Notes under the pieces: generated by a model
What the model was told of the DNA's origin: nothing
Databases searched by the model: none
The model's input: only the letters and a program-made list of their open reading frames with translations
Position numbers and translations under genes: made by a program
In this document: piece after piece, positions 3,287 to 14,859 of the stretch
How positions within the stretch are numbered: the first letter of the stretch is position 1
Layout: every line of letters begins with the position of its first letter
Source: an uncultured Flavobacteriaceae bacterium
GTDB lineage: Bacteria; Bacteroidota; Bacteroidia; Flavobacteriales; Flavobacteriaceae
NCBI GenBank assembly: GCA_937937185.1
Contig: CALDCO010000105.1
Span: forward strand, 1 to 39,052
DNA length: 39,052 nt
Direction of reading: 5' to 3'

Positions 3287-4858
3287 ATGTTTAAAACTAT
3301 TAAAAGCGACATACCAGCAAGTATTGTCGTGTTTTTTGTAGCATTACCACTTTGTTTAGGTATTGCATTGGCCAGTGGCGCACCCCTGTTTTCAGGATTA
3401 ATTGCAGGAATTATAGGAGGTATTGTCGTTGGAAGTATAAGCGGCTCTGAGGTTGGTGTAAGTGGTCCCGCTGCAGGTTTGGCTGCCATTGTTTTAGCGG
3501 CAATAGCAACTTTGGGCTATGAAGCTTTTTTGGTTTCTGTAGTTTTAGCTGGCATTATTCAAATCCTTTTTGGAGTACTTAAATTTGGTATTATTGGATA
3601 TTATTTTCCATCTTCAGTAATAAAAGGGATGCTTACGGGTATTGGGATAATTATCATTCTAAAACAAATCCCTCATTTTTTTGGGATTGATAAAGACCCT
3701 GAAGGGAATTTTGTGCTCTTTGGAGGAAACAGTAATATTTTTACAGACATTGTAAGCATTCCTCAAAATTTAGGATTAGGCTCTACGGTAATAGCCATAT
3801 TAGCTATAATTATCTTAATACTATGGTCTAATGTACTGGTGCATAAGCATAATATTTTCAAATTAATACAAGGACCTTTAGTTGCCGTTGTTGCAGGTAT
3901 TGTTTTCTATATTTTAACCCGAGGTACAGGGATGGACATTGCACAAAGTCATTTAGTACAAGTTCCTGTTCCAGACAGTTTAGATAGTTTTTTAGGGCAA
4001 TTTACCTTTCCCGATTTTAGCGTTATTGGCTCTTCTGGAATATGGGTTACAGCATTTACCATTGCACTTGTTGCGAGTTTGGAAACCCTATTGTGTGTTG
4101 AAGCAACCGATAAATTAGACCCAGAAAAACGGGTAACTCCTACCAATAGAGAATTGTTTGCTCAAGGTTCAGGGAATATTCTTTCTGGGTTAATTGGAGG
4201 GATCCCTATTACTCAAGTAATTGTTCGTAGTTCGGCAAATATACAATCTGGAAATAAAACAAAGCTAAGTGCGATTATTCATGGTTTTTTCTTACTTATT
4301 TCGGTATTATTAATTCCAACGATTTTGAACATGATACCCCTATCGGTTTTAGCGGCTGTTCTCTTTATAGTAGGCTACAAATTAGCTAAGCCTTCCACCT
4401 TTAAAGCCATGTGGACTGCAGGCTGGAAACAATTCGTTCCGTTTATTGCAACGGTACTAATTATTGTGTTTAAAGATTTACTTTGGGGTATTGGTATTGG
4501 TTTGGCTATTGGTATCATGGTGACCTTATATCACAGTTATAAGAACTCGCATTTCCTTCATAAAGAAGGCGAAGATATAGATGATGGAAAAGTGAAAATG
4601 ACGCTTGCAGAAGAGGTGACCTTTTTTAATAAGGCAACGATATTAAAAGAATTAGATAACCTACCAGAAAACTCTTATTTAGAACTGGACGTAAGAAAAA
4701 CCAGATTTTTGGATTATGATATCATAGAAATCCTTGATGATTTTGCTTTTAAAGCTAAGGAAAGAGCGATTAATATTAAACTGATATCCGAACGTGGTAT
4801 TGTAGAGAACCCCGATAGTTTTATTGAGTTTTTTAAATTAAGACCAAAAAAGCAGTAA
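3287..4858 (+). CDS. SulP family inorganic anion transporter (523 aa)
   Basis: A multi-pass membrane protein of the SulP/SLC26 family, which moves anions such as sulfate or bicarbonate, often with Na+ or H+. The opening region (IVVFFVALPLCLGIALASGAP, then GSISGSEVGVSGPAAGLAAI) is the conserved TM1-TM3 part. The TM8-TM10 signature appears as VASLETLLCVEATDKLDP and ITQVIVRSSANIQSG. The C-terminal 100 residues form a short STAS-like domain (LELDVRKTRFLDYDIIEIL). Substrate cannot be read from sequence. A second SulP and a carbonic anhydrase downstream make bicarbonate the favoured guess. Confidence 0.92.
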   Translation: MFKTIKSDIPASIVVFFVALPLCLGIALASGAPLFSGLIAGIIGGIVVGSISGSEVGVSGPAAGLAAIVLAAIATLGYEAFLVSVVLAGIIQILFGVLKFGIIGYYFPSSVIKGMLTGIGIIIILKQIPHFFGIDKDPEGNFVLFGGNSNIFTDIVSIPQNLGLGSTVIAILAIIILILWSNVLVHKHNIFKLIQGPLVAVVAGIVFYILTRGTGMDIAQSHLVQVPVPDSLDSFLGQFTFPDFSVIGSSGIWVTAFTIALVASLETLLCVEATDKLDPEKRVTPTNRELFAQGSGNILSGLIGGIPITQVIVRSSANIQSGNKTKLSAIIHGFFLLISVLLIPTILNMIPLSVLAAVLFIVGYKLAKPSTFKAMWTAGWKQFVPFIATVLIIVFKDLLWGIGIGLAIGIMVTLYHSYKNSHFLHKEGEDIDDGKVKMTLAEEVTFFNKATILKELDNLPENSYLELDVRKTRFLDYDIIEILDDFAFKAKERAINIKLISERGIVENPDSFIEFFKLRPKKQ

Positions 4859-4882
4859 ACCCTCTAACTTATACTAGTAAAT

Positions 4883-5557
4883 ATGAATCTATTTTTGAGG
4901 TCACTTCCCCTAGCGGTCTTAACTTTTTTTATGGTGTTTAAAAGCCATTCTCAAGAAAGCAATCTTGGGAATTGGTTAATCTATATAGGCAGTAAAAAGA
5001 TAAATTCTAAATGGAACCTTCACCACGAGGTACAATACAGAAATTACGATGCCATAGCCGATCTAGAACAGTTACTTTTAAGAACGGGTTTGGGCTATAA
5101 CCTTTCAGAAAATAATAACAACCTTTTATTGGGTTATGGCTATATTTTATCTGAAAATTATTTGCCCAATGCCAATGAAAAAGTGTCGGTAAATGAGCAT
5201 CGCATTTTTCAACAGTTTGTTACCAAACAAAAATTAGGTCGCTTAGGATTAACGCACCGCTATCGTTTTGAGCAACGATTTGTTGAAGACGATTTTAAAA
5301 TGCGATTTCGATATTTTTTGAGTTTGAAAGTGCCTTTTAAAAGAAATGAAGAGGGAGTCGATGGGCCATTTTATTTATCGGCTTACAACGAAATATTTTT
5401 AAATACCAAAACCTCTATATTTGATAGAAATAGATTGTACGGTGGCTTAGGTTATGAGTTTTCTAAGACGCTGAGATTAGAATTAGGATATATGAACCAA
5501 TTTTTTGAAACCTCTGGGAGGGATCAAATTAATATTATAGCATTTGTTAACTTTTAA
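4883..5557 (+). CDS. DUF2490 domain-containing outer-membrane-like protein
   Basis: 224 residues with a signal peptide (to about VFKSHSQ). The body alternates aromatic and charged residues as in a beta-barrel: NWLIYIGSKKINSKWNLHHE, RNYDAIADLEQLLLRTGLGY, RLGLTHRYRFEQRFV. It ends in an aromatic residue (IIAFVNF), typical of outer-membrane barrels. This pattern is that of DUF2490, whose function is unknown. It sits 24 bases after the first SulP gene and 73 bases before the second, so it probably belongs to the same transport cluster. An outer-membrane route for the anion is possible but only inferred. Confidence 0.8.
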   Translation: MNLFLRSLPLAVLTFFMVFKSHSQESNLGNWLIYIGSKKINSKWNLHHEVQYRNYDAIADLEQLLLRTGLGYNLSENNNNLLLGYGYILSENYLPNANEKVSVNEHRIFQQFVTKQKLGRLGLTHRYRFEQRFVEDDFKMRFRYFLSLKVPFKRNEEGVDGPFYLSAYNEIFLNTKTSIFDRNRLYGGLGYEFSKTLRLELGYMNQFFETSGRDQINIIAFVNF

Positions 5558-5630
5558 TGCTATAAATGTTAGCTTAAATTAAAGCCTTGTATAAAGTAAA
5601 TAAAATTTAGTCACTATAAATCTAAACCGT

Positions 5631-7496
5631 GTGAAAAACTTGTTTTCTAACATAAAAGGCGACGCCTTTGGAGGAATTACAGCAGGAATTGTTGCTTTAC
5701 CTCTAGCACTCGCCTTTGGTGTCTCCTCTGGCCTAGGCCCTGGAGCTGGATTATATGGCGCTATTTTTATTAGTTTTTTTGCGGCACTTTTTGGAGGAAC
5801 CAATACACAAATTTCTGGACCTACCGCACCAATGACTGCAGTAAGTATGCTTGTTATTGCTGGAATAATTGCAGCAAACGATGGCGATGTAAACAAGGCA
5901 CTTCCTGCAATATTAACGGTCTTTATTTTGGCTGGGGTCATTCAAATTATCCTTGGGGTAATGGGTTTTGGTAAATACATAAAATACATTCCATACCCTG
6001 TAGTATCTGGGTTTATGACGGCTATAGGAGTGATTATATTAATTACTCAAATACTCCCGTCTATTGGCTATTACCCTAAAGAAGATCTTGAATTAGTAAC
6101 TAAGTTTAAACCTCAAGCCGAAGAATTAATTCTTGAAAATATACTTAGCGATGAAGCTGGAGAAGGCATTTTAGTTTTAGAAGACTTCAAAGAAACTATT
6201 AAAAGAGCACAAGCGCTCTCGCAAGACGATATTGCTAAAGAATCTAAAACACTAGCAGCAAATTATTCAAAAGGAGTCATTGGGACTCTAAAAGTATTAC
6301 CAAGAGCATTTAAACACATTAATTGGCTAGAGCTTATCTTGGCCTTGTGTACCATTATTATTATCTATGGATTTAAACGCATTACTACGAAAGTGCCAAG
6401 CGCTTTAGTCGCATTAATTGCGGTTTCAGGGGTGGCTTATGCTATGGGTTTAGATTATAGAACCATTGAGAAAATTCCTTCGGGATTACCTATTCCTAGA
6501 TTAGAGATTTTTTCTCAATTTAGTTTTTCCAGCATAACGCCCTACATTTTTACTGCAATATCCTTAGCTTTATTAGGGGCTATAGATTCTTTACTTACCA
6601 GTGTTGTAGCAGATAATATGACCAAAACAAAACACAAACCCAATAAAGAACTTATAGGTCAAGGTATTGGTAATAGTATTGGCGCTATTTTTGGGGGGAT
6701 TCCAGGTGCAGGAGCCACGATACGAACGGTTGTAAATATTAATGCTGGTGGTAAAACCAAGTTATCTGGGATGATTGCTTCAATTATGCTTTTAATTATT
6801 CTTTTGGCATTAGGGCCTGTGGCCTCTAAAATTCCAGCCGCGGTATTGGCGGGCATTTTAATTACTGTTGGCATTGGCGTTATGGATTACAAAGGGCTTA
6901 AAGCAATTCCTGCCATGCCTAAAGACATGAAACTAGGCCCATTAAAATTAAGCTCTGAAGTGTTAATTATGCTCGTTGTTTTGGTGCTGTCTTCGGTTTG
7001 GGATCTGGTTTATGCGGTAGGAATAGGTTTAATAATTGCCTCGTTAATGTTCATGAAAAAAATTGGAGAGGTAACCGCACGGCGTTCTGATGTTAAAGTG
7101 TTAAAAGAAGAAGCTTGGCCAGATGAAACTGGTTTTCCAGAAAGTTTAAAAGAAGAAGTTTTTATTAAACATATTAAAGGCCCTTTGTTTTTTGGCTCTA
7201 ATGATGAGTTTCAACAATTGGCAAAACAAATTCCTAGTACTGCTAAAACGGTGGTGATTCGACTTGGGCGAATGCCCTATTTAGATCAAAGCGGACTCTA
7301 TACTATGGAAGATGTACTTGTCGATTTAAGAAAACAAGGCATGACCATACTATTTGTCGATGTACTAAAACAACCCAAATATATGATGGAACGTATAGGA
7401 CTTATCCCAGAACTTATTCCCAAGGAATGCCTCTATCCGGATTTCGCATCCTGTATGGAATGGATTAAAAATAACGTAAAGAATACTATCAATTAA
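5631..7496 (+). CDS. SulP family anion (probable bicarbonate) transporter with STAS domain
   Basis: 621 residues starting at GTG (5631). The N-terminus MKNLFSNIKGDAFGGITAGI runs straight into TM1 of the SulP fold. Conserved pieces include GLGPGAGLYGAIFISFFAALFG, ISGPTAPMTAVSM, IDSLLTSVVADNMT and IFGGIPGAGATIRTVVNINA. A polar insert of about 80 residues (roughly 150-235) separates two groups of helices. The last 120 residues are a full STAS domain (VVIRLGRMPYLDQSGLYTME). The carbonic anhydrase gene begins 14 bases after the stop. SulP plus carbonic anhydrase in one operon is a known arrangement for BicA-like bicarbonate uptake. Substrate remains inferred. Confidence 0.92.
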   Translation: MKNLFSNIKGDAFGGITAGIVALPLALAFGVSSGLGPGAGLYGAIFISFFAALFGGTNTQISGPTAPMTAVSMLVIAGIIAANDGDVNKALPAILTVFILAGVIQIILGVMGFGKYIKYIPYPVVSGFMTAIGVIILITQILPSIGYYPKEDLELVTKFKPQAEELILENILSDEAGEGILVLEDFKETIKRAQALSQDDIAKESKTLAANYSKGVIGTLKVLPRAFKHINWLELILALCTIIIIYGFKRITTKVPSALVALIAVSGVAYAMGLDYRTIEKIPSGLPIPRLEIFSQFSFSSITPYIFTAISLALLGAIDSLLTSVVADNMTKTKHKPNKELIGQGIGNSIGAIFGGIPGAGATIRTVVNINAGGKTKLSGMIASIMLLIILLALGPVASKIPAAVLAGILITVGIGVMDYKGLKAIPAMPKDMKLGPLKLSSEVLIMLVVLVLSSVWDLVYAVGIGLIIASLMFMKKIGEVTARRSDVKVLKEEAWPDETGFPESLKEEVFIKHIKGPLFFGSNDEFQQLAKQIPSTAKTVVIRLGRMPYLDQSGLYTMEDVLVDLRKQGMTILFVDVLKQPKYMMERIGLIPELIPKECLYPDFASCMEWIKNNVKNTIN

Positions 7497-7510
7497 TAAT
7501 AAGCAATAAA

Positions 7511-8140
7511 ATGAAAGATACAGCAATTACAAAAGAAGTGCAAAGTACGCTAACGCCATCAAACGTGTTAAGCGACCTATTAGAAGGAAACCAAAGATTT
7601 GTAAATAATCAAAAACAAAGTGTAAATAATAGTGCTTTAATAGAGCAAACCATTACAGGACAGTTTCCAAAAGCAGTCGTATTATCATGTATCGATGCTA
7701 GAGTGCCAGTAGAAACTGTTTTAGACCAAGCCATAGGAGATATTTTTGTTGCCAGAGTGGCTGGTAATTTTGAAAACACAGATATTCTAGGAAGTTTAGA
7801 ATATTCTTGTAAAGTGGCTGGCAGTAAATTAGTTTTAGTTTTAGGTCATGAATCTTGTGGGGCTGTAAAAGCAGCATGCGATGGTGTAGAACTGGGTAAT
7901 ATAACAGGACTATTAAGTAATATTTTACCGGCTGTAGAGAAATCTAAAGATGAAGTTAGTGGCGAATCGAACTCTTCAAATAAAGCCTTTGTTGCTAAAA
8001 CCGTTGAAAACAATGTAAAGTTAACGATAGAGCGTATAAGAGAGAAAAGTCCAATTCTTAAAGAACAAGAAGACAAAGGAGAAATTAGTATTGTAGGAGG
8101 AGTTTACAGTTTACATACTGGTAAAGTAGAACTCTTATAA
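7511..8140 (+). CDS. Beta-class carbonic anhydrase
   Basis: 209 residues, the usual length for the beta class. The zinc site is complete: Cys60 and Asp62-x-Arg64 in CIDARVP, then His113 and Cys116 in GHESCGAVKAA. Asp62-Arg64 is the catalytic dyad. The C-terminus VGGVYSLHTGKVELL is also typical. No signal peptide is seen, so it should be cytoplasmic and interconvert CO2 and bicarbonate. It follows the second SulP gene by 14 bases and ends the cluster. The long hairpin at 8171-8332 lies just downstream. Confidence 0.95.
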   Translation: MKDTAITKEVQSTLTPSNVLSDLLEGNQRFVNNQKQSVNNSALIEQTITGQFPKAVVLSCIDARVPVETVLDQAIGDIFVARVAGNFENTDILGSLEYSCKVAGSKLVLVLGHESCGAVKAACDGVELGNITGLLSNILPAVEKSKDEVSGESNSSNKAFVAKTVENNVKLTIERIREKSPILKEQEDKGEISIVGGVYSLHTGKVELL

Positions 8141-8505: not shown

Positions 8506-8937
8506 ATGTCATTTTCAGATTTATTTGATAGCGGATTTAAAAAACGAAACGAAGATCATTTTGCAGCAATAGTAAGAGTTGCAATGAGTGATGGTGTAAT
8601 TAGTAGCGAAGAACGTGCTTTTTTAGATCGTTTATCGCGAAACTTAGATATCAGTGATAAAGACTATGCTGAGATTTTAAAGAATTACAAGGCGCACCCA
8701 ATTAACCCCCCATCATCTTACGAAAGACGATTGGAACGTTTATATGATTTGGCCAGGATGGTTTGGGTAGATCAAGTAGAAGGCGAAAAGCAAATTGGTA
8801 TTTTAGAACGTTTATGTGTTGGTCTTGGGTTTAGACCTAAAAATGCAAAATACGTCACAGACAAAGCTTTAGATTTAGTGCAACATGGCGTAGATAGTGC
8901 GACTTTTATTGATGAAATTAAGAATATGAATAGATAA
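8506..8937 (+). CDS. TerB-like (tellurite resistance TerB fold) protein
   Basis: 143 residues, all helical and soluble. The core IVRVAMSDGVISSEERAFLD (about residues 22-41) is the acidic metal-binding motif of the TerB fold. A second helical repeat runs through LERLYDLARMVWVDQVEGEK and ILERLCVGLGF. Single-domain TerB proteins are common in Bacteroidota. They are thought to sense or bind metal or act in stress responses, but most are uncharacterised. No other ter genes are nearby, so tellurite resistance should not be assumed. The gene stands alone, with its own -7 element and a shared terminator after it. Confidence 0.8.
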   Translation: MSFSDLFDSGFKKRNEDHFAAIVRVAMSDGVISSEERAFLDRLSRNLDISDKDYAEILKNYKAHPINPPSSYERRLERLYDLARMVWVDQVEGEKQIGILERLCVGLGFRPKNAKYVTDKALDLVQHGVDSATFIDEIKNMNR

Positions 8938-8939
8938 TG

Positions 8940-8968
8940 GGCTTGTGTTATTTTTAGAAAAACAAGCC
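8940..8968. terminator. Bidirectional terminator between convergent genes
   Basis: GGCTTGT (8940-8946) pairs with ACAAGCC (8962-8968) across a 15-base loop that contains T-rich and A-rich runs. It lies exactly between the TerB-like gene (+) and the last histidine kinase gene (-) and touches the kinase stop codon. The stem is short and the flanking T-run is interrupted. Confidence 0.4.
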
Positions 8969-10506
8969 TATATTAAATTAAAATCATCTACTTTTTCTTT
9001 TATCAAAGCATTTATTTTTTCTGCAAGTGCATTTTTTTCATAGGGTTTGCTTATGTAAGCATTGGCTTTATTTTTTAAGCATTTTTTTTCTTCTTCTTCA
9101 TTTTTATTGGTAGACACCATAACCACTGGAATATTTTTAAACGTAGCATCTTCAGAAAGACGAATGTAGCGAATCGTATCTATACCATCCATTTTTGGGA
9201 GTTTAAGATTCATAATTAAAACATCATATTTGGTTCTGTTTAAACTTTCAATGACCGCATCGCCAGATTCAACAAAATTTAAAATGTATTTTTTCTGATT
9301 AAATATGCTTTCAAGTTCTTTTTCAGCTTTAGAAAATGGATCGGCAACTAAAACTTTTAGTGCGTTTTTTAACTGTTTTTTTTGTTGAAGCGCTTTCTTA
9401 TTTTGTATTTGACTTTTAGCTATTAAATACGGTAAATTCACCGTAAATGTTGTTCCCTTTTCCAACTCACTATTAACCGTTATCGTTCCTTCTAAAACAT
9501 TTACTAAATGTTTAACTATAGATAGCCCTAGACCAATACCTTTGTCTTTAATTCTATTATTATTAACTTGATAAAAACCATTGAAAATCGCCTTGAGGTC
9601 CTTGTGGGCTATCCCCATTCCAGTATCGCTTATTTTAAAATCTAATTGAATATTATTTCTAGTTTTACTTTTTGTAATAACTTCTAATTCAATAGTTCCA
9701 GTGGTAGTAAATTTTATAGCATTCTCTATTAAATTAGTTAATATTTGAGTTAAACGGTATTGATCGCCTTCTAAAAATACTGGACAAGACGCATCTATTT
9801 TGTAAATAAATTCTAATCCTTTTTCACGACACTTTTGTTCTGTAATGGCGTTAATATGATCTAGCATGTCATAAATATTAAAAGCACGCGTTTGCACCTC
9901 AAAATACCCTGTTTCTATTTTTGAGATATCGAGGATATCACTTATAATATGTTTTAATTGATCATTTATATTGCTTACCACATTTAAATTGTAACGCTGG
10001 GTTTGCGATAAATTAGTATCTCTTAAAAGCAAGCACATTCTATTAATAGAATTAATAGGAATTCTTATTTCATGACTAAAACTTCTAATAAATCGATTTT
10101 TAAAACGCTCTTTCTCCTCCAGAATACGGTTTTTATATTTTAACACTTCTGCGTTAATTATGGCCTCATTTCTTATTTGAGTCACTTTTTGTAAATTGCT
10201 GTAGTGCCTTGTTAAATCATCAATAATAATTAATGAATTGGTATCTTTTTCAAAAGTCTTTATCGTAATGTCTATAATGTAAGTTTTCCCTTTTAAAGCC
10301 GTATTAATACATTTGAAATTAAATTCTTGATTTTTATTTTTTGATAAAAAATCGACACTTTCAAAAAACGGGTGTAATGCTGTTATCGGTTTTCCAATAG
10401 CTTTCTTAAAAAGATGAGATTCGTTTTCTATTACAATGCCTTTTTCATCAAGAAGAATGAATTGGCTAATGGTGTTTGCTTGCGGATTTATGTATAAATT
10501 CAGCAT
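8968..10506 (-). CDS. Soluble hybrid histidine kinase with degenerate receiver domain
   Basis: 512 residues with no signal peptide or membrane helix. Order: PAS-like N-terminus (about 1-100), a coiled linker, HisKA with the H-box FSHEIR (His145), and HATPase with the N-box NLIENAIKFT (Asn262), DTGMGIA and GIGLGLSIV. A C-terminal receiver spans about 383-505. In the receiver, the phospho-acceptor position is Asn433 (VLIMNLKLP; codon AAT on the coding strand) instead of Asp. One of the N-terminal acidic pair is also Pro390 (VADPFS). Lys487 is kept. It should therefore be a pseudo-receiver that cannot take phosphate normally. It is clearly a paralogue of the upstream kinase: His and Asn fall at the same residue numbers. 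Last gene of the GTPase operon. Confidence 0.92.
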   Translation of the reverse strand: MLNLYINPQANTISQFILLDEKGIVIENESHLFKKAIGKPITALHPFFESVDFLSKNKNQEFNFKCINTALKGKTYIIDITIKTFEKDTNSLIIIDDLTRHYSNLQKVTQIRNEAIINAEVLKYKNRILEEKERFKNRFIRSFSHEIRIPINSINRMCLLLRDTNLSQTQRYNLNVVSNINDQLKHIISDILDISKIETGYFEVQTRAFNIYDMLDHINAITEQKCREKGLEFIYKIDASCPVFLEGDQYRLTQILTNLIENAIKFTTTGTIELEVITKSKTRNNIQLDFKISDTGMGIAHKDLKAIFNGFYQVNNNRIKDKGIGLGLSIVKHLVNVLEGTITVNSELEKGTTFTVNLPYLIAKSQIQNKKALQQKKQLKNALKVLVADPFSKAEKELESIFNQKKYILNFVESGDAVIESLNRTKYDVLIMNLKLPKMDGIDTIRYIRLSEDATFKNIPVVMVSTNKNEEEEKKCLKNKANAYISKPYEKNALAEKINALIKEKVDDFNLI

Positions 10507-10573
10507 AAGTGGGATAAATTGTTAAGAAAGATACACTAAAATCCCGTACAGTTGTCGTAAAAGCAGCTAATTT

Positions 10574-12097
10574 TTACTTTAAATATTTGTTAATTGTATT
10601 TATTAAGGTAATTTCATCAAAAGGTTTTTTTACAACATCGTTAATGCCTGCCTTTTTATATTTTTTTAAATCGGCACTAAATATTTTAGCAGTTAAAGCA
10701 ATAATAGGTACTCTTTTATGCTCACGCTCTGGAAGCTGTCTTATTTTTTTTGCAATTTCATCTCCCCATTGGTCTTTTAGTTTGATATCCATTAACACGA
10801 GATCAAATTCTGAATTTTCTATTCGCGGAATAACCTCGCTGGCATCAGAGACAATGTCTAAGAAAAATTGCCCTTTTCTTGCTAATATTTTTAGTACAGA
10901 AAGTTGGGTGATTTCAGAATCTTCAACAAGAAGAATATTGTATTTTTTATCTTGTTTTATGGGCTTTGTTATCGTTTTTTTGAGGGGTTTTGCTTTTTGT
11001 TTAGACTCTGGTTCTAATCTAAAATTAATATTAGTAGAAAAAGTAGAGCCCTTTCCTAATTCAGTTTCTACAGAGATCTTGCTATGTGTTAACTCCACTA
11101 AGTATTTAACAATGGCTAATCCTAAACCAGACCCTTTAAATGATAGTGGGTTGTTTATTTGCGTAAAGTTCTTAAAAATAGAGTCTATATTTTCTGGAGC
11201 GATTCCCATACCTGTATCGATAACTTCAAAATGAATACTCGCTTTTTGAGCTCTTATTTGGTTTAAAGAGACATTAAAATTAATACTGCCTTTTTCAGTA
11301 AATTTAATGGCATTATCTAATAGATTGGTAAGCACCTGTCTTAATCTAATAGCATCTCCCCCTATTTGTGTGGGGATTTTTTCATCAATAGTTGAGACAT
11401 ATTCCAGCCCTTTTTCTTTTGCGCGTATGGAGTAATTTGCATTAATATCATTTAAAAGCTCTCTAATATTAAAAGGTTTTAAAACTAATTTTAATTTCCC
11501 TACTTCTATTTTTGAGATGTCTAAAATATCATCAATCATTTTCTTTAAAAAATTAGAAGACGATTTTAGAATTTGCAAATAATTTTGCTGTTCATCATTT
11601 AATGGCGTGTTCGTTAAAATATCAGAAAAAGTAATAATACCCGTTATAGGATCTCGCAATTCATGGCTGAAATTAGCAATAAACGTGTTTTTGAATTCTT
11701 CTTTTTCTCTTAAATAACTGTTTTTTAATTCTAGGATTTGAGAATTAATAACCGACTCGTTTCTTACTTGAGCAGTCGTTTGATAATGCTTATAATGCGA
11801 GCTAAGGTCGGTAATGGTAAGGAGCGGATATTTCTCTTTATTGAACGTTTTAAGGGTAATATCTGCTGTAATTGATTTGTTATTTAAATTAAGATGGATA
11901 CAATTGAAAAAGTAGTCTTCATGATCTGTTTCTAGAAGCGGGATTAGCGTCTCAAAAAAGGGATTAATATCTGTTATATTTTGCGCCTTTACATTACTAA
12001 ACAAAACATCATCAGATTCTAGTATTTGACCATTAAAGTCAACTACTAAATACTGAATTATCGTTTTTCCATGTTCTTTTTTATAAGTTTTAAGCAT
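10574..12097 (-). CDS. Soluble hybrid histidine kinase with intact receiver domain
   Basis: 507 residues, cytoplasmic. A PAS-like N-terminal domain (about 1-100, ITDINPFFETL) leads through a coiled linker to HisKA (FSHELR, His145). The HATPase follows (NLLDNAIKFT with Asn262; DTGMGIA; GSGLGLAIV). The receiver (about 386-506) is complete: acidic pair Glu392-Asp393 in LLVEDSE, phospho-acceptor Asp437 in LVLMDIK, Thr in ALTAK, and Lys491 in VKKPF. It lies 15 bases after the small GTPase gene and 67 bases before its paralogue, so all are probably one transcript. It lacks a recognisable output domain. The intact receiver suggests a phosphorelay or self-regulation; the partner is unknown. Confidence 0.93.
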   Translation of the reverse strand: MLKTYKKEHGKTIIQYLVVDFNGQILESDDVLFSNVKAQNITDINPFFETLIPLLETDHEDYFFNCIHLNLNNKSITADITLKTFNKEKYPLLTITDLSSHYKHYQTTAQVRNESVINSQILELKNSYLREKEEFKNTFIANFSHELRDPITGIITFSDILTNTPLNDEQQNYLQILKSSSNFLKKMIDDILDISKIEVGKLKLVLKPFNIRELLNDINANYSIRAKEKGLEYVSTIDEKIPTQIGGDAIRLRQVLTNLLDNAIKFTEKGSINFNVSLNQIRAQKASIHFEVIDTGMGIAPENIDSIFKNFTQINNPLSFKGSGLGLAIVKYLVELTHSKISVETELGKGSTFSTNINFRLEPESKQKAKPLKKTITKPIKQDKKYNILLVEDSEITQLSVLKILARKGQFFLDIVSDASEVIPRIENSEFDLVLMDIKLKDQWGDEIAKKIRQLPEREHKRVPIIALTAKIFSADLKKYKKAGINDVVKKPFDEITLINTINKYLK

Positions 12098-12112
12098 TTC
12101 TTCTCTACTTAT

Positions 12113-12604
12113 TTAAATTAGCTCCATTGCTAATTTAGAGAAAAGTTCGTCAACTTCGTTTCCAGTTTTGGCACTTGTGTAAAAATCGACAAGAGGTTCG
12201 ATTTCCTTGTTCAACTGCTTTATTTGTTCCTTTGTGAGCAGGTCTTCTTTGTTTCCTACTATTTTTATAAGTGTTTTATTGCAATGTTGTTTAAGGTAAT
12301 CGATGTCGTCCTTAATAGTCATGTAAGTAGCAGGTCTTGATACATCAAAAACGTAAATATAAGCATGAGTTCCTAATAGATAGGAGGTACGCGTATCTCT
12401 TATATCATCGTTACCTTCAAGATCCCATATCACCAGAGAAATGTCTTTGTCTTCTTCAGTAATGGCCACCTTTTTTTTAAAAATATGTACTCCTATAGTT
12501 ACTTTATAATCGTCTGAAAAAGTATTTTCTACAAAGCGTCTTATCAGTGAAGACTTGCCTACACCAAAGTGACCAATTAGAACAACTTTTTTAGATATTT
12601 TCAT
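12113..12604 (-). CDS. Ras/Rab-like small GTPase
   Basis: 163 residues, a single G domain. P-loop GHFGVGKS (residues 11-18), switch I Thr36 in YKVTIGVH, G3 WDLEGND (Asp61-x-x-Gly64), G4 NKED (118-121) and G5 SAK (144-146) are all present. So it should bind and switch on GTP. Switch II differs from the Rab/Ras consensus DTAGQE: Glu63 replaces Ala, and Asn65 stands where the catalytic Gln (Ras Gln61) would be. Slow intrinsic hydrolysis is therefore likely (inference). No lipidation motif is seen. Its start overlaps the end of the upstream roadblock-like gene by 14 bases, so the two are translationally coupled. It belongs to the prokaryotic Ras-like GTPases related to MglA and the Rup families. 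Confidence 0.9.
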   Translation of the reverse strand: MKISKKVVLIGHFGVGKSSLIRRFVENTFSDDYKVTIGVHIFKKKVAITEEDKDISLVIWDLEGNDDIRDTRTSYLLGTHAYIYVFDVSRPATYMTIKDDIDYLKQHCNKTLIKIVGNKEDLLTKEQIKQLNKEIEPLVDFYTSAKTGNEVDELFSKLAMELI

Positions 12605-13409
12605 TTTCGAAATATAATTTTAATTTTTCACTTAACTTAGAAGTATCATCTAAATCTTCCTTGTTAATTACATTTTGAGCAAAGTTAAGTAATTTGTCTT
12701 CTAATTCGTCTTTAAAAATAACATTATATGAGCCAGAGATTACAACAGCAATGTAATATGAAGAAAAGTTTTGAAGGTGCACGTGGTACCCTTCGTACTC
12801 TATGTATTGCAGCTCAATCTCTTTTTTATCAAAGGCATCTTCAGCAAAACTTTTAATAGCAGTAAGCATGCCAGCAACCATATCTTCATCAATATTTTTT
12901 GTTCGGGTATATTCTGAGATGATTAGGCCAGACCCTTTATTAATCACCATTAATTGCTCGATAACGGGTTTAATTTGTTCTTGAATCACTAATTCGCCTT
13001 CACTTACACCTGTTTTTTTTGCTTTAAATTTCCGTTTCAATGATTTAAATGAGAAGGTATTGCTTACTTGAGAATTTATTTTTTCAGAAAGCAGTTGCAT
13101 TTCATGCTGTACATACCGTTTTATCATTTTACCTATAATAGGAAATAATGCTTCAACTACTGCATCTTTAGAGTTTTCTATTTCTGATTTTAGTGCCTCA
13201 GTAATGGTTGGACCAAGAGTTTTGGGCATTTCCTTTATAAATTCTTCTAACTTATGATCGATGATGGGATCAACTTTTTGGGAAAGTTGATTTTGTTTGT
13301 TAATGGTTTCTTCAAGGATCTTTATTTTTTTAGATATTTCTTCGGCATATTGGCGTTCATCTGTAAGTAAGATGTTTTTAAGAATATCTAATTTTTCTTG
13401 TTGATTCAT
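12591..13409 (-). CDS. Coiled-coil protein with C-terminal roadblock/longin-like domain, GTPase partner candidate
   Basis: 272 residues, soluble. An N-terminal coiled coil (about 1-60) begins ILKNILLTDERQYAEEI. The middle part is a helical module, SKDAVVEALFPIIGKMIKRY (about 88-107). I associate this module with the N-terminus of some OmpA/MotB-type envelope proteins encoded beside small GTPases. Residues about 145-255 look like a roadblock/longin-type alpha-beta domain (SGLIISEY, DEDMVAGMLTAIKSFAEDAF, YYIAVVISG). Roadblock proteins such as MglB act as regulators of Ras-like GTPases. The 14-base overlap with the GTPase gene strongly suggests a protein pair. No OmpA domain is present here. Domain assignment is from pattern recognition only. 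Confidence 0.6.
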   Translation of the reverse strand: MNQQEKLDILKNILLTDERQYAEEISKKIKILEETINKQNQLSQKVDPIIDHKLEEFIKEMPKTLGPTITEALKSEIENSKDAVVEALFPIIGKMIKRYVQHEMQLLSEKINSQVSNTFSFKSLKRKFKAKKTGVSEGELVIQEQIKPVIEQLMVINKGSGLIISEYTRTKNIDEDMVAGMLTAIKSFAEDAFDKKEIELQYIEYEGYHVHLQNFSSYYIAVVISGSYNVIFKDELEDKLLNFAQNVINKEDLDDTSKLSEKLKLYFENENI

Positions 13410-13429
13410 GAAAAAACCATGTATGGTAT

Positions 13430-13789
13430 TTACTGGCTTATTTTTTCTCCTAATTTAGTAAAGAGTTCACCCAATAACTTGCGGTCTGCTTTTTTATTAT
13501 CTAGAGCGTCAATTTTATGCTTAAAGTGGTCTTCTAGTTCAGTAACTCTAATATTTACATCGGTACTTAAATTATCTATCGATTGTATGAGTTCGCTTCT
13601 AACTTCATCAATTAATGCTTCAAGTTCTTTCTTTTTGTTTAACAAGTCTTTTTTTACAGATTCAAACTCAGAATCGTAAGCTTGCATATTTTCTCCAAAA
13701 ATGAGCTGCTTTATGGCATCAATTTTTGTAGAAGCATCATTGGCTACTGTTATATTTTCGGTATTAGTATTTGTTTTTACTTTAGACAT
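13430..13789 (-). CDS. Small coiled-coil protein, first gene of the GTPase operon
   Basis: 119 residues, hydrophilic and almost all helical, with heptad-like spacing from about 40 to 115. Near the N-terminus it carries AIKQLIFGENMQAYDSEFE. This resembles the ILKNILLTDERQYAEEI start of the next gene, so both share an N-terminal motif. No membrane segment or catalytic motif is seen. It ends 20 bases before the roadblock-like gene. I infer a scaffold or adaptor that pairs with the 272-residue protein through the shared motif or the coiled coil. No function is known to me. The fbp gene lies 62 bases upstream and may be on the same transcript. Confidence 0.7.
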   Translation of the reverse strand: MSKVKTNTNTENITVANDASTKIDAIKQLIFGENMQAYDSEFESVKKDLLNKKKELEALIDEVRSELIQSIDNLSTDVNIRVTELEDHFKHKIDALDNKKADRKLLGELFTKLGEKISQ

Positions 13790-13851: not shown

Positions 13852-14859
13852 TTAAGGATTTTTTTGCATAAAGACCTCGGCTTTTTCTACCATATTTTTA
13901 TTTCCGCAGAAAAAAGGCACTCTTTGGTGTAGTTCTGTTGGGGTTATATCTAAAATCCTAGTAAAGCCATCGCTTGCTTTTCCATTGGCTTGCTCTGCCA
14001 AAAAAGCGATAGGGTTACACTCATATAGTAATCTTAGTTTACCGTTCGCATTTTTAGAACTCTTAGGGTACATATAAATACCGCCTTTAATCATGTTTCT
14101 ATGAAAATCTGACACCAGAGAACCTATATATCTGGAAGTATATGGGCGATCCCCTTCTTCCATCTGGCAATATTTGATGTAATTTTTTACACCTTGAGGG
14201 AAGTGACTGTAATTCCCTTCATTTACCGAGTATATGTAACCTTTTTTAGGAAATTTCATGTCTGGGTGAGACAAATAAAAGGTGCCAATGGCAGGGTTTA
14301 ATGTAAACCCATTAACGCCATGTCCTGTGGTGTATACTAGCATCGTCGAGGTCCCATATACAATGTAACCTGCTGCAACTTGTTCACTACCTTTCTGGAG
14401 AAAATCTTTCAATTTCACAGGGGTGCCTATGGGCGTAATACGCCGGTATATCGAGAAAATGGTACCTACAGAAACATTAACATCTATATTAGAAGAGCCA
14501 TCTAGTGGATCAATTAAAACAATATATTTATTTTGGTTATTTTCATCCTGGCTATTTATACTAATAAAATCGTCTTCTTCTTCACTTGCAATACCACAAA
14601 CAATATTTCTATTTGTTAGCGTTTGAATAAATTTATCGTTTGCGTAAACATCGAGCTTTTGTTGGTTTTCACCTTGAATATTCGTATCTCCTGCCGCTCC
14701 AATAATGTCTACCAACCCAGCTTTATTAACTTCGTGATTAACCACTTTCGCAGCGAGCCTTATAGAATTAATAAGTCGAGATAATTCTCCTGAAGTGTAT
14801 TTAAAAGAGGCCTGATTTTCAATAATATACTCTCCAAGAGTTTTGTTTTTTTGAGACAT
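13852..14859 (-). CDS. fbp: Class 1 fructose-1,6-bisphosphatase
   Basis: 335 residues, the normal length. It removes the 1-phosphate from fructose 1,6-bisphosphate, the committed step of gluconeogenesis, in the cytoplasm. The metal-binding acids are present in GIASEEEDD (Glu93-95) and in [10 protein letters not shown] (Asp117, Asp120). The substrate-binding loop [20 protein letters not shown] and the C-terminal [12 protein letters not shown] are typical. The start ATG fits family N-termini. It is transcribed toward the GTPase operon with a 62-base gap, so partial co-transcription is possible. Confidence 0.96.

Follow-up and report, generated by a model that had tools for sequence, protein, structure and literature searches.

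A Group 1 Rup operon of Flavobacteriaceae with a soluble, probably roadblock/longin-like putative partner protein and a duplicated hybrid kinase

The neighbourhood of the Group 1 Rup GTPases, described by Wuichet and Søgaard-Andersen in 2014 (PMC4316618; published Rup set of 71 sequences), contains a Ras-like GTPase without the G3 glutamine, a small coiled-coil protein, a protein with a conserved domain of unknown function, which elsewhere ends in an OmpA part, and a histidine-kinase output with an invariant N-terminal glutamine. Bacteroidetes are among the listed taxa, and GGDEF/EAL proteins are also found among the Rup outputs. In the cited sections of that paper, a conservon-like signalling system was already proposed for Group 1 Rup, together with the speculation that a glutamine supplied in trans makes up for the absent catalytic one. 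Here we report on an operon in a 39,052-nucleotide stretch of DNA (the window) from an uncultured Flavobacteriaceae bacterium (GenBank assembly GCA_937937185.1, contig CALDCO010000105.1, positions 1 to 39,052 of the forward strand). Judged by gene set and motifs, this operon belongs to the Group 1 Rup systems; its conserved-domain protein (P272) appears to be soluble, and its kinase is duplicated, one copy having a degenerate receiver. Compared with the published Group 1 Rup systems, as far as the cited sections describe them, P272 lacks the OmpA part, the kinase is duplicated with a degenerate receiver in the copy, and the unknown domain is placed in the roadblock/longin superfamily. An earlier note on this DNA had read the operon as a possibly undescribed module; the 2014 description of the gene set does not support that reading, and the unusual second kinase is a new detail. 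Also new, and both reached by computation, are the superfamily given to the unknown domain and the place of the invariant glutamine. The features of the operon are as follows.

13430 to 13789, minus strand: P119, 119 amino acids (aa), small lysine/glutamate-rich protein, first gene of the conserved core
12591 to 13409, minus strand: P272, 272 aa, helical N-terminal half and predicted C-terminal roadblock/longin-like domain
12609 to 13001, minus strand: part of P272 (residues about 137-267) predicted to fold as a roadblock/longin-like domain
12113 to 12604, minus strand: Rup-type small GTPase (Rab-like), 163 aa, complete G1-G5
12410 to 12412, minus strand: codon of GTPase Asn65, at the place of the Ras catalytic Gln61
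10574 to 12097, minus strand: HK2, PAS-HisKA-HATPase-receiver hybrid kinase, 507 aa, conserved output gene
11768 to 11770, minus strand: codon of HK2 Gln110 (QVRN), near the start of the post-PAS helix
8968 to 10506, minus strand: HK1, clade-specific HK2 paralogue, 512 aa, degenerate receiver
9208 to 9210, minus strand: codon of HK1 Asn433, which replaces the receiver phospho-Asp

The five genes are intact open reading frames (ORFs) transcribed in the order P119, P272, GTPase, HK2 and HK1, with gaps of 20, -14, 15 and 67 bases, so that the coordinates and gaps of the earlier note were confirmed. None of the five proteins contains a hydrophobic helix, the highest 19-residue Kyte-Doolittle mean being 1.29, in agreement with its description of kinases without membrane helices. 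The gene order is conserved far beyond chance. Among the 27 named loci from a GTDB scan, which belong to Flavobacteriaceae or to genera within that family, the order P119-P272-GTPase was kept in all 27, and HK2 came next after the GTPase in 26, the contig of the other one (L031) ending there. HK1 was present in only 12 of the 26 named loci with HK2; therefore, the conserved core is composed of four genes, P119, P272, GTPase and HK2. The linked set of GTPase, roadblock-like protein and kinase is thus conserved in gene order; as to the co-occurrence of all five families, the four-gene core co-occurs elsewhere but HK1 is confined to one clade. The P272 and GTPase genes overlap in 20 of the 27 named loci, and in the other seven the two ORFs, as called, lie 92-142 bases apart. 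The four-gene core was found again in more distant genomes (L036-L039, L059-L067 and L089-L092). A P272 profile (E up to 1e-3) and a GTPase profile (E up to 1e-15) picked out the identical 14 of 395 phylum genomes, from 11 genera, and in an order sample of 395 genomes the 12 with the GTPase all fell within the 19 with P272; the two samples partly overlap and the genomes are related, so these counts are not independent events.

Directly downstream of the GTPase and on the same strand, an ORF of at least 300 aa with a match to a kinase, a sigma-54 activator or a related protein was found in 50 of 51 loci, the 51st being L031 at its contig end; the output of L098 is represented by the overlapping ORF that carries the kinase match. 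Five plasmid records gave a GTPase match, and of the three examined, a Nostoc and a Mesorhizobium plasmid share the four core genes and their order. The output of the Nostoc plasmid, where gene annotation is absent, is a hybrid kinase, and its P272 homologue has 763 aa. The Mesorhizobium plasmid (L103) has an adenylate/guanylate cyclase as the output and a P272 homologue of 1021 aa that matches OmpA; the record itself labels the last three genes as OmpA family protein, Rab family GTPase and cyclase. Its cyclase output gene (L103:6496-7566) is followed by two more cyclase-domain genes downstream.

The GTPase belongs to the Ras family (Pfam PF00071, E 4.8e-33) with complete G1-G5 motifs, and the complete small GTPase read in the earlier note therefore stands. 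The place of Ras Gln61 is occupied by glutamine in none of the 51 GTPase homologues. The residues found there are N (29), T (9), E (8), P (1) and D (1), together with S, S and G in L090-L092, for which the residues were taken from the raw sequence as the alignment columns had slipped. Among 838 solved structures related to the GTPase, the best 60 were all of the Rab type, with no MglA among them. Judged by these relatives, the GTPase is a Rab-like switch, and it has no catalytic glutamine of its own. The MglA-MglB pair of Myxococcus and Thermus is similar in combining a small GTPase with a roadblock partner, and the Foldseek search with P272 described below returned MglB structures among others; it differs in the GTPase family, in the extra N-terminal helical half of P272 and in the linked output gene. 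A polarity or motility module of this type could be suspected from a GTPase and a roadblock-like partner in one operon. It is very improbable given the Rab-type relatives; in addition, the own genome gave no match to the roadblock family Robl_LC7 at E 0.1, and no phylum genome with P272 is among the 14 of 198 genomes with Robl_LC7, the overlap of the samples being shown for G000 and G133. None of the results speaks to polarity as such.

P272 is homologous to the protein of Rup systems that carries the domain of unknown function. Structure model and profile comparison predict that this domain probably is a diverged member of the roadblock/longin superfamily. Neither P119 nor P272 matched a Pfam family above the cut-off. 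The C-terminal part of the AlphaFold model of P272 shows the topology a-b-b-a-b-b-b-a-a. A Foldseek search with the model yielded longin domains, AP sigma subunits, MglB and Mon1-Ccz1 at E of about 1e-4 to 7e-4, and VIA-align gave Z up to 13.7 with an rmsd of 2.5 over 116 residues. The listed VIA rows are mostly longin-type chains; MglB was absent among the 50 rows listed, which is no argument against a roadblock. Comparison by hhalign of a profile of 30 of the 39 phylum Robl_LC7 matches against 40 P272 C-termini revealed a score of 36.7 and a probability of 72% over 112 collinear columns. None of 300 column shuffles reached this score (maximum 21.0), and the controls gave probabilities of 0.1-0.5% for PAS, receiver and kinase and 18.5% over 14 columns for the GTPase. 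The 22 GTPase-linked short forms reached a score of 36.6 as a subset. Moreover, Fuz_longin_1 was matched by 2 of the 40 P272 members, below its cut-off, and sub-threshold matches to the MON1/FUZ and CCZ1/INTU longin families fell in the same domain of two homologues, among the 10 of 40 given in detail. The roadblock-like character that the earlier note had ascribed to the 272-residue protein is thus supported at the superfamily level by AlphaFold, Foldseek, VIA and hhalign. A longin domain has an extra C-terminal helix and lacks the N-terminal helix compared with a roadblock domain, according to the cited part of PMC10933270, and the helices of the P272 model flank the domain on both sides (137-145; 230-247 and 256-267).

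Several results speak against this assignment. The P272 model is of middling quality (mean pLDDT 61, pTM 0.45, domain blocks 60-84), and the hhalign probability is no higher than the 72% given above. The OmpA-type subset of 12 sequences alone scored 23.0 with a probability of 4.6%, and a subset of six orphans alone scored 12.3 with a probability of 0.2%. P272 also failed to match Pfam Robl_LC7 (PF03259). This family is not among the 25 of 76 families listed in a Pfam scan of the 40 P272 members, and a two-profile sequence search of solved structures gave no useful P272 relatives. Since the unknown domain is nevertheless probably of the roadblock/longin kind, a roadblock-like partner may exist for the Rup GTPases too. 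In that case, these GTPases would never have lacked a partner of the usual kind, and named Lacinutrix and Olleya strains would possess a Rab-like GTPase together with a longin-like partner. No earlier statement of a roadblock/longin partner for Rup systems was found in the literature searched, outside of which most subscription journals lay. Similar to the operon, Rab GTPases with longin exchange factors (Mon1-Ccz1, TRAPP) combine a Rab-like GTPase with a longin-type protein, the class of the best VIA matches, and the weak MON1/FUZ and CCZ1/INTU matches of P272 homologues point to the same families. The system here differs in being bacterial, soluble and linked to a phosphorelay, and the fold similarity shows no shared function.

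In all 27 named loci, P272 is preceded by a P119 homologue. P119 is probably a coiled coil, as judged from composition and weak matches. A common ancestry of P119 and the N-terminus of P272 was rejected, as hhalign gave a probability of 0.4% and a score of 13.7, which several of 200 shuffles exceeded (top 25.7). Outside the class, P272 has longer homologues, of 589-636 aa in all 12 loci; of three scanned whole, those of L090 and L093 matched OmpA above the cut-off and that of L097 was just under it (27.0 against 27.2 bits). The OmpA part is missing from P272 of the window and its relatives in the class.

Both kinases matched HisKA, HATPase_c and Response_reg in Pfam. The PAS domain stated in the earlier note was upheld for HK2, as residues 1-140 are modelled as PAS with a mean pLDDT of 86.8 and the best matches in the PDB are PAS (E 2.1e-4), though neither kinase gave a Pfam PAS match. 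HK2 retains the receiver phospho-Asp, Asp437, and an aspartate is kept at this position in 38 of 40 HK2-type kinases. In an output alignment of 65 rows, comprising 50 output proteins, 13 HK1 copies and two plasmid outputs, Gln110 of HK2 is conserved in 65 of 65, and no other column among the first 134 residues is free of variation. In the HK2 model it is located near the start of the long helix leaving the PAS domain, ahead of the phospho-His helix. Gln15 was also considered as the invariant glutamine and was dropped, being present in only 38 of 50 in the alignment. The output types sharing the glutamine include the hybrid kinase, a kinase-receiver-Hpt protein (L089), PAS-sigma54 activators (L090, L092), a kinase with an NtrC-type regulator next to it (L093) and the adenylate/guanylate cyclase of L103. 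When scanned, the outputs of L090 and L092 proved to be PAS-sigma54-activator-Fis proteins, and that of L091 is similar in length and start. The sigma-54 activators and the cyclase, all at other loci, go beyond the output types named in the cited sections of PMC4316618.

The survival of Gln110 in kinases, sigma-54 activators and the cyclase suggests a role common to all output types, for which GTPase docking is a natural candidate. Gln110 would thereby offer a one-residue handle on the GTPase-to-output link proposed in 2014, of which no later test turned up in the literature searched. On the other side, several distant outputs carry more than one glutamine at this place, where a Gln-rich helix may help the aligner, and Gln110 is likened to the 2014 glutamine by description, not by logo position. 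At L059:6221-6640, a free-standing 139-aa relative of the kinase N-terminal domain lies between P272 and the GTPase, and this stand-alone PAS-like ORF is apparently without Gln110, as judged by eye.

Overall, the explanation that we consider best, with moderate confidence, is a Group 1 Rup operon in which a GTPase-P272 platform controls the HK2 output. We infer its binding and regulatory steps, including GTPase-P272 binding and the control of the kinase. P272, together with P119, would be the dedicated regulator and platform of the GTPase, and its roadblock/longin-like domain would bind the GTPase by analogy with MglB-MglA and longin-Rab. In one nucleotide state, the GTPase would dock on the PAS domain and the first helix turns of the output, around Gln110. 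The docked GTPase would set the activity of the module behind, here the HK2 phosphorelay, and HK1 would keep the docking part with a receiver unable to be phosphorylated at the usual site. Only tentatively do we extend this proposal to a joint reading, in which Group 1 Rup would be a further GTPase-plus-roadblock/longin signalling lineage, its Rab-like GTPase and longin-type partner governing interchangeable outputs, Gln110 would supply the catalytic glutamine in trans, mechanically coupling GTP hydrolysis to the kinase output, and HK1 would sit on the same GTPase as a decoy or as a heterodimer partner.

The actinobacterial conservons CvnA-D likewise encode a kinase, a roadblock-type protein, a second small protein and a Ras-like GTPase in one operon, as described in the cited part of PMC13343842. 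They differ in that their GTPase is of the MglA family (PMC4316618, cited sections), compared with the Rab-like GTPase here, and in having a membrane sensor kinase and an MglB-type roadblock protein, whereas the operon encodes soluble hybrid kinases with receivers and a P272 unmatched by Robl_LC7. In a conservon-like order of events, the kinases would sense, for which their PAS-like domain could serve, and would phosphorylate P272, P119 or each other, with the GTPase as the output. This order is unlikely, because the same slot is filled elsewhere by sigma-54 activators and a nucleotide cyclase, and also by GGDEF/EAL proteins (PMC4316618); the slot proteins, which share the N-terminal glutamine, look like outputs and not like inputs.

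In the kinase tree of 53 rows (40 HK2-type and 13 HK1, the outputs of L089-L101 left out), the HK1 copies form one clade with a support of 100/99, the deep placement of which is unsure due to long branches. HK1 occurs in the window, its near relatives L009 and L010, Lacinutrix or Bizionia loci, and L017. The receiver phospho-Asp is replaced by Asn in 13 of 13 HK1 copies and the second acidic residue by Pro or Thr. The phospho-His is kept in 11 of 13, among them the HK1 of the window, and Gln110 and the N-box Asn in all 13. Read from sequence, the kinase was duplicated in this clade and the HK1 receiver is predicted not to be phosphorylatable at the usual site. Between the window and the two near relatives, the dN/dS is 0.155-0.175 for HK1 and 0.068-0.084 for HK2, calculated with partly saturated synonymous distances of 0.7-2.1, indicating that HK1 appears constrained yet faster evolving than HK2. 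HK1 would most likely tune or compete with HK2.

The operon is flanked by the following genes.

13852 to 14859, minus strand: fructose-1,6-bisphosphatase (fbp), 62 bases upstream of the core, on the same strand
8506 to 8937, convergent with HK1: TerB-like protein gene, at the same place in 26 of 27 named loci

As fbp lies only 62 bases upstream on the same strand, the transcript may start before P119, with fbp as a possible first gene. The role of fbp is probably housekeeping. The gene is found upstream of the core in 26 of 27 named loci, and together with the OmpA-type P272 homologues it raises the alternative that the kinases are mere neighbours and that the GTPase and P272 act on the envelope or metabolism. 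Such a separation is seen in seven genomes of the order sample, all from one family, which carry P272 without the GTPase at E 1e-15; P272 can therefore act without the GTPase. In L094, L096 and L099, P119-P272 stands apart from a GTPase, which is encoded elsewhere in the genome and not within the stretch; the GTPases of G428, G446 and G533 lie on other contigs. These cases weigh against the platform proposal, as do the GTPase-kinase genes of L093, L095, L097 and L101, oriented opposite to P272. The mere-neighbour alternative is quite unlikely, however, as an output gene of one of several types directly follows the GTPase in all but one of the 51 loci, one residue of the output N-terminal part is invariant, and no fbp match was found beside the core in L037-L039.

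The P272-like genes of L068-L075 (family f7) are a GTPase-free offshoot of the family. No GTPase is found in these stretches, and seven of the eight loci have no kinase match, L074 having one, which fits kinases as mere neighbours. In seven of the eight loci, the P272-like gene lies behind a gene with a weak match to P119, which codes for 329-433 aa. Both P272 forms are present in G091, which belongs to the same family as the GTPase-free genomes.

Prediction of promoters and terminators was uninformative (34 and 3 in comparison with 32.3 and 3.4 in shuffles), and a Flavobacteriia-type promoter pattern was not found upstream of the operon. A defence system was considered and rejected, the matches to LeoA, ATPase-Toprim and ZorA being weak (E 1e-4 to 3.8e-4). 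Elsewhere in the window, positions 3287-8140 contain two sulfate-permease-family genes, a DUF2490 gene and a carbonic anhydrase gene, all on one strand, a group that perhaps serves bicarbonate uptake.

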